This document shows, piece after piece, positions 32,998 to 38,840 of a stretch of 64,000 nucleotides of DNA (the first letter of the stretch is position 1; each line of letters starts with the position of its first letter). The notes beneath the pieces are model-generated. The model was not told the DNA's origin. It was given only the letters and a program-made list of their open reading frames with translations, and did not search any database. The stretch comes from Bacteroidales bacterium. GTDB lineage: Bacteria > Bacteroidota > Bacteroidia > Bacteroidales > WCHB1-69. The DNA is taken from positions 1-64,000 of the forward strand of contig JAKSMC010000017.1 of NCBI GenBank assembly GCA_024400835.1, in the 5' to 3' direction. The position numbers and the translations under genes are program-made.

Positions 32998-33000
32998 CAA

Positions 33001-33038
33001 AAAAAAGTTGTAAGGCCCAATGACCTTACAACTTTTTT
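33001..33038 (-). terminator. terminator after HMA-repeat gene
   Basis: AAAAAAGTTGTAAGG and CCTTACAACTTTTTT pair perfectly over 15 bp. Confidence 0.88.
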
Positions 33039-33069
33039 CTATGACAATATTAGGATTACCTAACAAATC

Positions 33070-33696
33070 TTAGTGTTGGCATTTGTGTTCGCCATTCTGG
33101 CCTTGGCATTGGTGGCTGCATTTGTGGTCGCCGCTTTGGCCTTGGCATTTGTGTTCGCCATTCTGACCTTGGCATTGGTGGCTGCACTTGTTGTCGCCGC
33201 TTTGGCCTTGGCATTTGTGTTCAGCGCTTTGACCCTGGCATTTGTGTTCGCCATTCTGGCCTTGGCATTGGTGGCTGCACTTGTGGTCGCCGCTTTGACC
33301 CTGGCATTTGTGTTCGCCTTCGCCATGTTGGCATTTGTGCTCAGCAGATTTGGCATCACTGCAGGAACCACCGCCTTTGCAACATGCGGGGAGGTTTTCA
33401 CGAGCCTTAGGATCAGCTGCTACGTTGTCTGCATTGTATCCTAACTTGCTGATATCCTTGCGCAATTGGTCAGGATTGGTTTTGTTGGCATCGTATTTGA
33501 TGGTCAAAACAGCCGTCTTTGCATCATAAGTGTACGTTTTAACGCCTTTGAAGAAAGGAACATTCTCGCTGAAACGATCAGCACATTTTTGACAGTTCAA
33601 AGCCGCATTTGTCTTGATTACGACTGATTGTTCTTTTTGAGCATAAGTGCCCATTGTCAGAATGGCCATTAAAGCCAATAAGATGAATTTTTTCAT
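33070..33696 (-). CDS. secreted HMA-domain protein with Cys/His-rich tandem-repeat tail
   Basis: 208 residues. Signal peptide MKKFILLALMAILTMGTYA-Q, then a heavy-metal-associated domain of about 65 residues with the metal-binding pair Cys35-x2-Cys38 (NAALNCQKCADRF) and the usual YDAKTAVLTIKYDANKT strand. From residue ~105 a tail of nine [HN]KC units follows, alternating GEHKCQGQ and GDHKCSHQCQGQ. I count 12 Cys and 13 His in the repeats, besides ACCKGGGSC before them. Such a tail should chelate soft metals (Cu, Zn, Cd, Ni). It follows a TonB receptor gene by 96 bp and ends in a strong terminator, so it is probably a periplasmic or exported metal-sequestering partner of the receptor; metal and direction are unknown. 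Confidence 0.82.
   Translation of the reverse strand: MKKFILLALMAILTMGTYAQKEQSVVIKTNAALNCQKCADRFSENVPFFKGVKTYTYDAKTAVLTIKYDANKTNPDQLRKDISKLGYNADNVAADPKARENLPACCKGGGSCSDAKSAEHKCQHGEGEHKCQGQSGDHKCSHQCQGQNGEHKCQGQSAEHKCQGQSGDNKCSHQCQGQNGEHKCQGQSGDHKCSHQCQGQNGEHKCQH
33073..33345 (-). repeat. in-frame coding tandem repeats of the metal-binding tail
   Basis: DNA units of about 24-36 bp (GAACACAAATGCCAGGG-like) repeat imperfectly. Whole blocks of about 90 bp also recur, pointing to recent expansion. Copy number could vary between strains. Confidence 0.8.
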
Positions 33697-33792
33697 TGTG
33701 TTTTGTTGTTTATAATTATGATAAATTTATGATTTTTCGATAAAGAATTTGCGCTGACTATATTGTTTTATAAAAGTTTAAAATGTTGAAAA

Positions 33793-36057
33793 TTATTTTA
33801 GCATATAACGTACTCCGAGGTATCCCATAATGCCGGAAATAGGAGCGTAAACTATTGAGGCATCGAAATGTTCGCTGAAAGGATTGTCTGCGGAAATAAT
33901 GGGGTTCTCCTGTTTGTAATTCAGCATATTCTCGGCTCCTGCATAGATCTCCCATCTTCTGAATTTCTTGGTAACCTGTGCATTCATGATGCAGAACGTC
34001 TTGGAATATTCGGGGCGCTGGTACTCTACAGGATTGAGGTGAGTGTCTGGCAGTCTCTGCGGTCCGTTTATTTGGAAGGTCAGATTGAATTTCCAACGGT
34101 CGTAGCGTGTGCTGTAGTTCAGGTTTATCAAACCTTTGTGCGGGCTCATCAGCACTTTCTCGCGCATCACGCCGTGCGTCATATAGCGTACGTCGTTGTA
34201 TCTGTAGGCCAAGGTGAGTTCGAAGCGTTCGAAAGGCTTTAAGATAAGTTCCACTTGGGCTGAATGCGAACGGGAAATATTGCCGTGGCCATTGTAGTCG
34301 CCATTCAGGTTGTAAACATTGATTGAGTGGACGTCTTGATCCAGGTCAACGATGCTCTGATTTACAAAGTGGGTGTAGAAATAATCTACGGACAGGGAAG
34401 ACTTTCCGCCAGGCATTTTGAAACTTTGCACAAAGCTTATGCCTGCGTTGTACGCCTCTTCCGCCTTCAGCATTTCGAGGACGTCATATCTTCTACTTGA
34501 CGTAAGCAGGCCGATGTTTTCGGCCAATATATGAGCGGATCGGTAGCCCTTGCCTACAGATGCCCTAAAGGAGGTGTTTTCTGATATCTGCCATTTCAAA
34601 TGCAAGCGCGGGGTCCAGAACAGTTGGTTGAAATGGCTGTTGTAATCCAAACGCATACCCGCCATCACCACTAATTTCGGATCAATGATGTAACAATATT
34701 CTCCGAAAATGCCGGGAACGGTCTCTATGGTCGGTACGTGAAAATAAGATCCGGGATCGAATTGGAAATGTCTTTCGAAAACATCTACATAATAGTCATA
34801 TTGGAAACTTCCGCCTGCGGTCAGCTTGTGTCTTTTGTTACTACCAAATTTATTGGAGTACAGTACGTTGACATACACACTATGCTGTATGGCATAGAAA
34901 TCATTCAGATCAAATACGGCATTGGTGAGATGTCCCGTATAGGAAACTATGGTTCCGATGCTTTCGTCTTCGCCCTTCAACAGGAACCCGTTTTTGGTGA
35001 TAAAGTCCCATCTTTTATTGTCGATGTGCAAGCCGTAGATTTCATTTGAGTAGGAATGTTCGCGCCAGTCATAATCTTTCTGGCCCCCTACCCTGTTGTC
35101 CCAGACGAAGTCAATCATAGTGCGGCTCCTCCAGATGTTTTTGCAGTTGGAGTCCCAGCGGTTCATCACATTGATTTGCTGGCTGCGGGGCACATCTAAA
35201 AAGCCGTCCTTGTTCATGTCCATTTTGGCAAATTGGTCGCCGGCGAAAAGCAGCAACTCCGTGCTGACTTTGTCTTTTTTGCCGACTTTGAGTTTGCTGT
35301 TGAAACTGAGTTCGCCCTTGCCCATGGAGTTTCCGTAAAGATTGAGGAATACACGTTCGTAGTTCGTCTCTGGTTTTTTGTAATCCACATTGATTTGTCC
35401 GGTTATGGCCTCGTAGCCATTGGTCACAGAAGCCACACCTTTTGAAACACTGATGGATTCCATCCAGGTCCCGGGCACGAAACCCAGTCCGAATTGATGG
35501 GAAAGAATGCGGATGAACGGGACGTTCTCAAGAAGGATTTGGCTGTAGATGCCGGCGAGGCCGAGCATCGAAATCTGCTTGGCTCCGGTTATGGCATCGG
35601 AGTATTCCATATCTACTGCAATGGTGCTTTCAAAGCTTTCAGCGAGGTTGCAGCAGGCCGCGCGACGCAGTCCCTGCTGGGTGATTACCGTGGTGAGTAT
35701 GGGTTGCGTGGAAATGAACGAGCCATCACGTCCCACGATGCTCACTTCATCCAATGAGTGGGCGTGTGACAGGATGATGACAATGTCGTTCTGTGCAGCA
35801 GAAACCGTCATTGTATCAGGCTGATACGTCGGGAATGAGACAACCAGGGAGTCCGTCTTGGAACGTTGCAGTTCGAAGTATCCGTTCGAATCGCTGTGCG
35901 TGCCTACGGAGGTGTGCAGCCACTGGAGTGCGGCTGAAGGCACAGCTGTTGTGTCGCCGATATCTGAAACCTCCACCACCCTGCCCTTCAGGGTCTGGGA
36001 CAATGCGCTAAAGGATAGCGAACAAAATATAAGAATGCTCAGCCAGTATTTTCTCAT
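33793..36057 (-). CDS. TonB-dependent outer-membrane receptor
   Basis: 754 residues. Signal peptide (MRKYWLSILIFCSLSFSALS-Q), a carboxypeptidase-regulatory-like domain (residues ~22-95, LKGRVVEVSDIGDTTAVPSA), a plug (AESFESTIAVDMEYSDAITG, then AKQISMLGLAG) and a beta-barrel ending in YLGVRYMLK. The plug holds an unusual adjacent Cys pair (RRAACCNLAES). No SusD partner is present, so it is not a glycan importer of the SusCD type. The following gene is an HMA protein with a metal-binding tail, which suggests metal or metallophore uptake (inference). Fifteen bp separate it from the upstream acyl-CoA synthetase gene. Confidence 0.88.
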   Translation of the reverse strand: MRKYWLSILIFCSLSFSALSQTLKGRVVEVSDIGDTTAVPSAALQWLHTSVGTHSDSNGYFELQRSKTDSLVVSFPTYQPDTMTVSAAQNDIVIILSHAHSLDEVSIVGRDGSFISTQPILTTVITQQGLRRAACCNLAESFESTIAVDMEYSDAITGAKQISMLGLAGIYSQILLENVPFIRILSHQFGLGFVPGTWMESISVSKGVASVTNGYEAITGQINVDYKKPETNYERVFLNLYGNSMGKGELSFNSKLKVGKKDKVSTELLLFAGDQFAKMDMNKDGFLDVPRSQQINVMNRWDSNCKNIWRSRTMIDFVWDNRVGGQKDYDWREHSYSNEIYGLHIDNKRWDFITKNGFLLKGEDESIGTIVSYTGHLTNAVFDLNDFYAIQHSVYVNVLYSNKFGSNKRHKLTAGGSFQYDYYVDVFERHFQFDPGSYFHVPTIETVPGIFGEYCYIIDPKLVVMAGMRLDYNSHFNQLFWTPRLHLKWQISENTSFRASVGKGYRSAHILAENIGLLTSSRRYDVLEMLKAEEAYNAGISFVQSFKMPGGKSSLSVDYFYTHFVNQSIVDLDQDVHSINVYNLNGDYNGHGNISRSHSAQVELILKPFERFELTLAYRYNDVRYMTHGVMREKVLMSPHKGLINLNYSTRYDRWKFNLTFQINGPQRLPDTHLNPVEYQRPEYSKTFCIMNAQVTKKFRRWEIYAGAENMLNYKQENPIISADNPFSEHFDASIVYAPISGIMGYLGVRYMLK

Positions 36058-37886: not shown

Positions 37887-38840
37887 TTATTGAATTCTAT
37901 CAGATATAAGGTATTTGTTTCTATCGGAGCTGCTACGGGCAATCATTTCGCCTAAGAAGCCGGCCAAGAAGAGCATGAAACCTAAAATCATAGCCAAGCA
38001 TGCGATGGCGAACAAAGGTTGGTCAGTCACTTGACGGAAAGGTGCACCATTAGACTGATGTACCAATTTGGCGATAATCAGCCAAACAGCGCAAACAAAA
38101 CCTATGAGGAAGGAGACGCTGCCCCACAAGCCGAAAGCGTGCATCGGTTTTTTGCCGAAACGGGTCATGAAGGAGATCGTCAGCAAATCGAGATAGCCGT
38201 TTACAAAACGATTCCAACCGAATTTGGAGACGCCGAATTTGCGTTTCTGGTGTTTCACCACCTTCTCCCCTATCTTGGTAAAGCCGGCCCATTTGGCGAT
38301 GACCGGAATGTAACGGTGCATTTCGCTGTACACTTCGATGGACTTCACGACATCTATTTTATAAGCCTTCAAACCGCAGTTGAAATCGTGCAGCATTATG
38401 CCTGACATCTTGCGTGTTGTCCAATTGAAGAATTTGGACGGGATGTTCTTAGCCAATTTGGAATCATAACGGACTTTCTTCCATCCGGACACCAAGTCGT
38501 AGCCATCTTCTGTTATCATGCGGTAGAGCTCAGGAATCTCGTCGGGGCTGTCCTGCAAATCGGCATCCATTGTGATGACGACATTGCCTTGGCAAGTCTC
38601 GAATGCTGTGTTCAGGGCTGCGGACTTGCCATAGTTACGGCGGAATTTGATACCTTTGATGCACTCGTTCTGTGCGTGGAGGTCTTGAATGATTTTCCAA
38701 GATTCATCGGTGGATCCGTCATCTACCATGAGCACCTCATACGAGAAGTTGTGCTCATCCATGACGCGCTTGATCCATGCGGACAATTCCGGCAGGGATT
38801 CAGCTTCATTCAAAAGGGGTACAATTACTGATATATCCAT
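37887..38840 (-). CDS. GT2 bactoprenol glycosyltransferase-like protein
   Basis: 317 residues. GT-A domain DISVIVPLLNEAESLPELSA, VLMVDDGSTDESW and VVITMDADLQDSPDEIPELY, with KFFNWTTRKMSGIMLHDFNC typical of the ArnC/GtrB group. Two C-terminal membrane helices (SFLIGFVCAVWLIIAKL; LFAIACLAMILGFMLFLAG) and a cytoplasmic end (GEMIARSSSDRNKYLI) follow. It likely loads a sugar on undecaprenyl phosphate for glycan modification. It follows the DUF4199 gene by 2 bp, a pairing I remember from other Bacteroidetes. Confidence 0.88.
   Translation of the reverse strand: MDISVIVPLLNEAESLPELSAWIKRVMDEHNFSYEVLMVDDGSTDESWKIIQDLHAQNECIKGIKFRRNYGKSAALNTAFETCQGNVVITMDADLQDSPDEIPELYRMITEDGYDLVSGWKKVRYDSKLAKNIPSKFFNWTTRKMSGIMLHDFNCGLKAYKIDVVKSIEVYSEMHRYIPVIAKWAGFTKIGEKVVKHQKRKFGVSKFGWNRFVNGYLDLLTISFMTRFGKKPMHAFGLWGSVSFLIGFVCAVWLIIAKLVHQSNGAPFRQVTDQPLFAIACLAMILGFMLFLAGFLGEMIARSSSDRNKYLISDRIQ

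Follow-up and report, generated by a model that had tools for sequence, protein, structure and literature searches.

A TonB-dependent receptor with a plug Cys-Cys and an exported HMA-domain protein form a conserved pair in Bacteroidota, probably for soft-metal transfer

Why should an exported HMA-domain protein with a long Cys/His repeat tail be encoded next to a TonB-dependent receptor, and do the two proteins act together? We addressed these questions for a locus of an uncultured gut Bacteroidales, in a window of 64,000 nucleotides (the whole stretch of DNA analysed) belonging to a genome of 3.0 Mb that is 98% complete. A preliminary description had read the locus as a possible metal capture or metallophore-like hand-off system at the cell surface, and had named as its refutation a lack of metal response together with a lack of conserved adjacency of the two genes in relatives. 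The features of the locus are collected in Table 1. The receptor gene starts only 15 bp after the end of an AMP-binding (acyl-CoA ligase-like) gene, so that its transcription may start at a promoter further upstream. No consensus promoter match was found in the gap between the receptor and HMA genes, and near both genes there was no Bacteroides-type promoter and sigma-70-type matches were not above chance. An open hydrophobic frame also runs antisense across the repeats (33073-33444, + strand), as a by-product of the repeat sequence.

Table 1. Features of the receptor-HMA locus, in window coordinates.
Feature	Position	Strand	Basis or remarks
Terminator-like stem-loop 3' of HMA gene	32998-33041	-	20 pairs counted, T-rich tail
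Exported HMA-domain protein with Cys/His repeat tail	33070-33696	-	208 aa; ORF call, Pfam
Repeat tail, 102 aa after LPACC	33073-33378	-	13 Cys, 13 His, nine [HN]KC; 9-codon and 13-codon modules
LPACC motif, end of HMA module	33379-33393	-	LP-x-CC common among relatives
HMA domain, residues 33-87	33436-33600	-	Pfam PF00403, 39.9 bits vs cut-off 24.8
CxxC metal-binding motif C35QKC38	33583-33594	-	Nearly invariant among 30 relatives; binding predicted
Sec signal peptide MKKFILLALMAILTMGTYA	33640-33696	-	Read from sequence by eye; without lipobox cysteine
Receptor-HMA intergenic gap, A+T-rich	33697-33792	-	96 bp; HMA gene downstream of receptor
TonB-dependent receptor	33793-36057	-	754 aa; ORF call, Pfam
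TonB-dependent beta-barrel	33928-35100	-	Pfam, 73.3 bits vs cut-off 27
Plug domain of receptor	35398-35706	-	Pfam, 29.4 bits vs cut-off 23.9
Plug Cys135-Cys136, motif AACCNLAESF	35650-35655	-	Receptor sequence and alignment
CarbopepD_reg_2 domain, receptor N-terminus	35743-35970	-	Pfam

The smaller protein belongs to PF00403, with a score above the cut-off and both C35 and C38 in place, and its HMA domain was the sole one detected when the whole genome was searched. In the AlphaFold model (m7ae08e2c3dfd) this domain is mostly above pLDDT 90 and the tail is disordered, at about 50; the solved structures that the predicted fold most resembles are Cu(I) chaperones and domains of copper ATPases (CopZ-like 2qif, CopA), with MerP also close. 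ORF call, Pfam and motif counts thus bear out the earlier view of an exported, one-CxxC HMA protein with a Cys/His repeat tail. The proposed location of this protein at the cell surface is not supported, since its Sec signal is of the ordinary kind, without a lipoprotein cysteine, and since, in natural fusions to the receptor, the HMA domain is N-terminal and periplasmic.

Plug and barrel scores above their cut-offs, together with fold matches to BtuB, Cir and OprC, identify the larger protein as a TonB-dependent receptor. As first described, it adjoins the HMA gene, no SusD gene flanks it, and it carries a Cys-Cys in its plug. These two cysteines were invariant in the aligned receptors (68/68), a set extending from 74% to about 31-34% identity with the window protein; two outlying homologues (L166 and L167) lack them. 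They align with residues that immediately precede the first plug helix of Cir (NLKDVL). Because the plug region of the receptor model has a pLDDT below 50, the geometry of the Cys-Cys was dropped and its position left unplaced in the model.

Conservation of the pair was assessed at two scales. Of 104 genomes of the same family, 82 contained the receptor, and about 49 of those 82 had the HMA gene adjacent on the same strand, as counted from coordinates. The receptor was also found in records named Bacteroidales, Flavobacteriales, Rufibacter and Chitinophagales, and where a retrieved locus has an HMA gene, this gene in most cases directly adjoins the receptor. Among 247 Bacteroidota genomes sampled across the phylum, 64 had a high-scoring receptor. 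Of these, 24 have the HMA gene downstream, 15 have it upstream, 5 have it fused to the receptor and 2 have it within about 1.3 kb; in the other 18 it is elsewhere, missing or not listed. Linkage was found in 19 families besides that of the window; these counts are of genomes, not of independent events, and one genus contributes many. In a sister clade the HMA gene lies away from the receptor. Parabacteroides distasonis has a tail-free version of the module, in the order Cys-rich exported protein, receptor with AACCNLAESF, and HMA; Bernardetia is a second named example of conserved gene order.

In the five fusions (L153-L157) the HMA domain is inserted in frame between the signal peptide and the plug, with two HMA copies in three of the five; Pfam placed HMA above the cut-off in three and just below it in a fourth. 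In one fusion the HMA module is followed immediately by a His-rich repeat, HEGHDHDDHEGHDH, which stands where the window protein has its tail. A His/Asp-rich repeat linker, HEGHDHDDHEGHDHASHEGHDH, occupies about residues 117-165 of the L154 fusion. A mature TonB receptor has its N-terminus on the periplasmic side, and the fused HMA domain sits at this end, which argues that the HMA partner works in the periplasm. Without a shared function, linkage in either gene order and across 19 other families would be hard to account for. The lack of conserved adjacency that was named as one half of a refutation was therefore not observed: the two genes adjoin in either order, with fusions besides. By linkage and fusion, as judged from gene order, the receptor and the HMA protein are a conserved functional unit. 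Since they adjoin and sometimes fuse across Bacteroidota, they very probably move a soft metal together.

Clustering of the neighbours at 57 loci yielded only one other broadly recurrent gene, which encodes a small exported Cys/His-rich protein (26/57 loci, three sequence clusters). Two tested examples of this protein scored above the cut-off of NCBIfam HYC_CC_PP and three others had no match; apparent matches in L016-L018 were discarded as spurious ORFs, and a search of the window genome for this family gave no match. At the same 57 loci no inner-membrane metal transporter recurred beside the pair, efflux genes were not recurrent neighbours, and there was no recurrent sigma/anti-sigma pair. 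In one Bacteroidales genome (L090, 5557-5910) the gene immediately upstream of the receptor encodes an ArsR-family regulator. Long tails, nearly all from one genus, occur at loci without the HYC_CC_PP-type helper, Xylanibacter excepted, and one hypothesis is that the tail replaces the HYC_CC_PP protein.

We consider it rather probable that this module serves TonB-dependent uptake of a soft metal with hand-off to a periplasmic HMA chaperone, the tail acting as a buffer; the identity of the metal, the direction of its flow, the thiol relay and the function of the tail are the parts of this account that we infer. The receptor would import a soft metal ion or chelate across the outer membrane with TonB energy, the metal most likely being Cu(I) and less likely Zn. 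At the beginning of the first plug helix, the invariant Cys-Cys would form an internal thiol site, and the periplasmic HMA domain would take the metal at its CxxC from the periplasmic side of the receptor. The flexible Cys/His tail, added in the window lineage, would be a high-capacity buffer holding several ions so that they do not reach free thiols or iron-sulphur enzymes. Judged by the thiol pairs and the HMA fold, Cu(I) is favoured, and Zn, Cd or Hg are possible. Linkage, fusions, the invariant Cys-Cys, the HMA fold, the recurrent tails, the Cys/His-rich neighbour and an HMA gene adjacent to CusC/CusA genes support uptake with hand-off; the lack of an evident need for copper, the lack of a recurrent inner-membrane transporter and the 18 of 64 genomes without a linked HMA gene count against it.

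The metal-related genes of the window genome bear on the metal and on its direction. This genome gave no match to the P-type ATPase, ZIP, COX1 or Cu-oxidase_3 families, and neither a haem-copper oxidase nor a multicopper oxidase was detected in it; with none of these oxidases and no P-type ATPase, a need for copper is not evident. It has one CusA/CzcA-family pump, in a CusB/A/C-like efflux set with a His-rich adaptor (L097, 5122-10977). At what we take to be the alignment positions of the three methionines of CusA this pump has T, C and H, so that copper handling is not implied. The missing oxidases, ATPase and ZIP, together with a CusA-like pump without the methionines, would be compatible with copper uptake for some other use, with zinc, or with protection.

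Protection is at the centre of an alternative that we consider unlikely, in which the HMA protein and its tail would trap excess Cu, Zn or Cd in the periplasm, much as a metallothionein does, and pass it to a CusCBA-type pump, while the receptor would admit the metal incidentally or retrieve a chelator. The window genome, with its pump and His-rich adaptor and no P-type ATPases, is in keeping with such detoxification, as are a nearby genus in which the HMA gene adjoins CusC/CusA-type efflux genes (L032/L104, the CusA/CzcA-type pump being in L104), a Haliscomenobacter plasmid with the receptor near a CusA/CzcA gene, and the expansion of tails in genomes without P-type ATPases, though tails also expand in some with one. 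Against it, the fusion of HMA to the TonB receptor and linkage in about 20 families point to inward transfer, and efflux genes do not recur beside the pair. We prefer uptake with hand-off to detoxification because it is the receptor, and not efflux genes, to which HMA is linked. P-type ATPases are present in 51 of the 104 family genomes. An anticorrelation within the genus between these ATPases and either the tail or an adjacent HMA gene, striking at first sight, was given little weight, since it follows subclades, several tailed species have the ATPase, and the ATPase itself has a neighbour of Fur type and an N-terminus rich in His. In sister species (L098, 2935-5381; L101, 1783-4312) this N-terminus is long and the neighbouring gene resembles a Fur-family regulator.

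The tail fits what had been claimed for it, namely nine [HN]KC units with about 12 Cys and 13 His in some 100 residues, as the 91 residues from A118 contain 12 Cys and 13 His. It is built of two module types, xEHKCQGQx and xDHKCSHQCQGQN, and its nine [HN]KC compare with 0.23 on average, and never more than 3, in 20,000 shuffles of the tail. The near-identical DNA repeats reported in blocks were recovered as a 66-bp unit with 91% matches, a 93-bp unit, and a 104-nt block that recurs at 90% and 89%. Expandability was likewise upheld: tailed relatives of the same genus have 8-16 tail Cys in units of EHKCQG or similar, and the repeats of the window protein are homogenised, being closer within species than between (0.62 vs 0.24 shared 11-mers). 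The long tail is absent from other members of the genus and family. In the sister clade the tail units are GHQDGKSCAG or GQGCGNHG and the HMA gene is relocated beside a SulP-like transporter gene (L105, L109, L111, L112 and L127; SulP-like by resemblance, unscanned). A second HMA paralogue carries GEHKCAGEAKA repeats (L121, 2226-2768; L123, 1049-1723) and adjoins a glycosyltransferase gene resembling the window ORF at 37887-38840, and in Xylanibacter rarus the tail repeats are rich in Cys and lack the HKC unit. One relative has an HMA tail that changes frame inside its repeats (EHKCANAQG then PTPKAASTN; L106, 2605-3399), either really or by assembly error.

Could the tail be functionless repeat growth on an ordinary HMA protein? 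The greater likeness of repeats within than between species, as slippage would give, and the frameshifted tail are what such growth would leave; we think it improbable, given that nearly all units retain their Cys and His although some synonymous codons differ, and that different Cys/His units recur in several clades. From these comparisons the tail is a lineage-specific, expandable addition that appears to have been gained more than once. Repeated gain and expandability suit a metal buffer, without proving it. The same receptor often occurs in relatives that lack a long tail, for which reason we regard the tail as accessory and find the suggested metallophore-like role unsupported. Of the surface hand-off system first proposed, what stands, on adjacency and fusions, is the conserved functional pair, without its surface and metallophore-like parts.

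Some TonB transporters carry signalling domains N-terminally, and the N-terminal HMA in the fusions resembles them in place, so that HMA might be a metal sensor or gate on the receptor (a periplasmic, plug-associated regulator) and not a carrier, the tail extending its metal reading; this is very improbable, as no sigma/anti-sigma pair recurs beside the pair and most HMA partners are separate exported proteins, some of them encoded away from the receptor.

How does the uptake pair compare with known systems? OprC and NosA are TonB receptors that take up copper via a Cys/Met/His site (PMC8610252), and the OprC metal motif is given as CxxxM-HxM (PMC11213822). OprC and the window receptor are both TonB receptors, and OprC was among the fold matches; the window receptor differs in having Cys-Cys instead of CxxxM, in an identity of about 11% in the fold alignment, and in its HMA partner. 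It was not assigned to the OprC type, its sequence being C135-C136-N-L-A-E with no Met four residues after either Cys and no OprC/NosA-type NCBIfam match. CrtA (PMC12914433) and TccA (PMC12617631) are likewise TonB receptors, through which copper reaches the periplasm. In CrtA no Cys or Met is conserved, and the genes found with it in operons are those for PepSY_TM, PCuAC or Sco, not HMA (PMC12914433). Both serve respiratory oxidases, whereas the window genome has no COX1. SusC/RagA receptors share the layout of CarbopepD_reg_2, plug and barrel; membership of this SusCD-type glycan uptake class was rejected, with 36.8 vs 368.25 bits for TIGR04056 and no SusD nearby.

The HMA protein is like MerP and CopZ in its single HMA fold with CxxC, and like MerP in being periplasmic; it differs from them in having an outer-membrane receptor as partner and a long Cys/His tail. 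It was assigned neither to MerP (TIGR02052, 21.1 vs 92.55 bits; no mer genes beside the HMA gene) nor to CopZ (29.7 vs 95 and 22.1 vs 91 bits; CopZ is cytoplasmic and the window protein has a signal peptide). Bacterial metallothioneins are Cys/His-rich metal binders, which is the function expected of the window tail; the tail has no match to any metallothionein family, and its unit, EHKCQGQ, lies in an exported protein. Each domain family is thus known, and the TonB copper importers OprC, CrtA and TccA have been described; we found no published description of the receptor-HMA pairing, nor of a Cys-Cys receptor class with an HMA partner or fusion, in the literature searched, which lay outside preprints and most subscription papers.

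Tentatively, the locus may represent an undescribed, Bacteroidota-wide mode of soft-metal acquisition, made of a Cys-Cys receptor, a dedicated HMA chaperone that is sometimes built in, and an HYC_CC_PP-type helper, in which the helper-less window lineage would have grown a Cys/His store instead. Parabacteroides distasonis, which carries the tail-free module, is a culturable species for testing. The uptake of copper and other metals across the outer membrane is poorly known in Bacteroidota, which are dominant in gut and rumen. If uptake with hand-off is true, the plug Cys-Cys with an adjacent or built-in HMA domain would give a sequence handle on metal uptake in this phylum, and the tail would be a natural case of a metal store that grows by repeat expansion.
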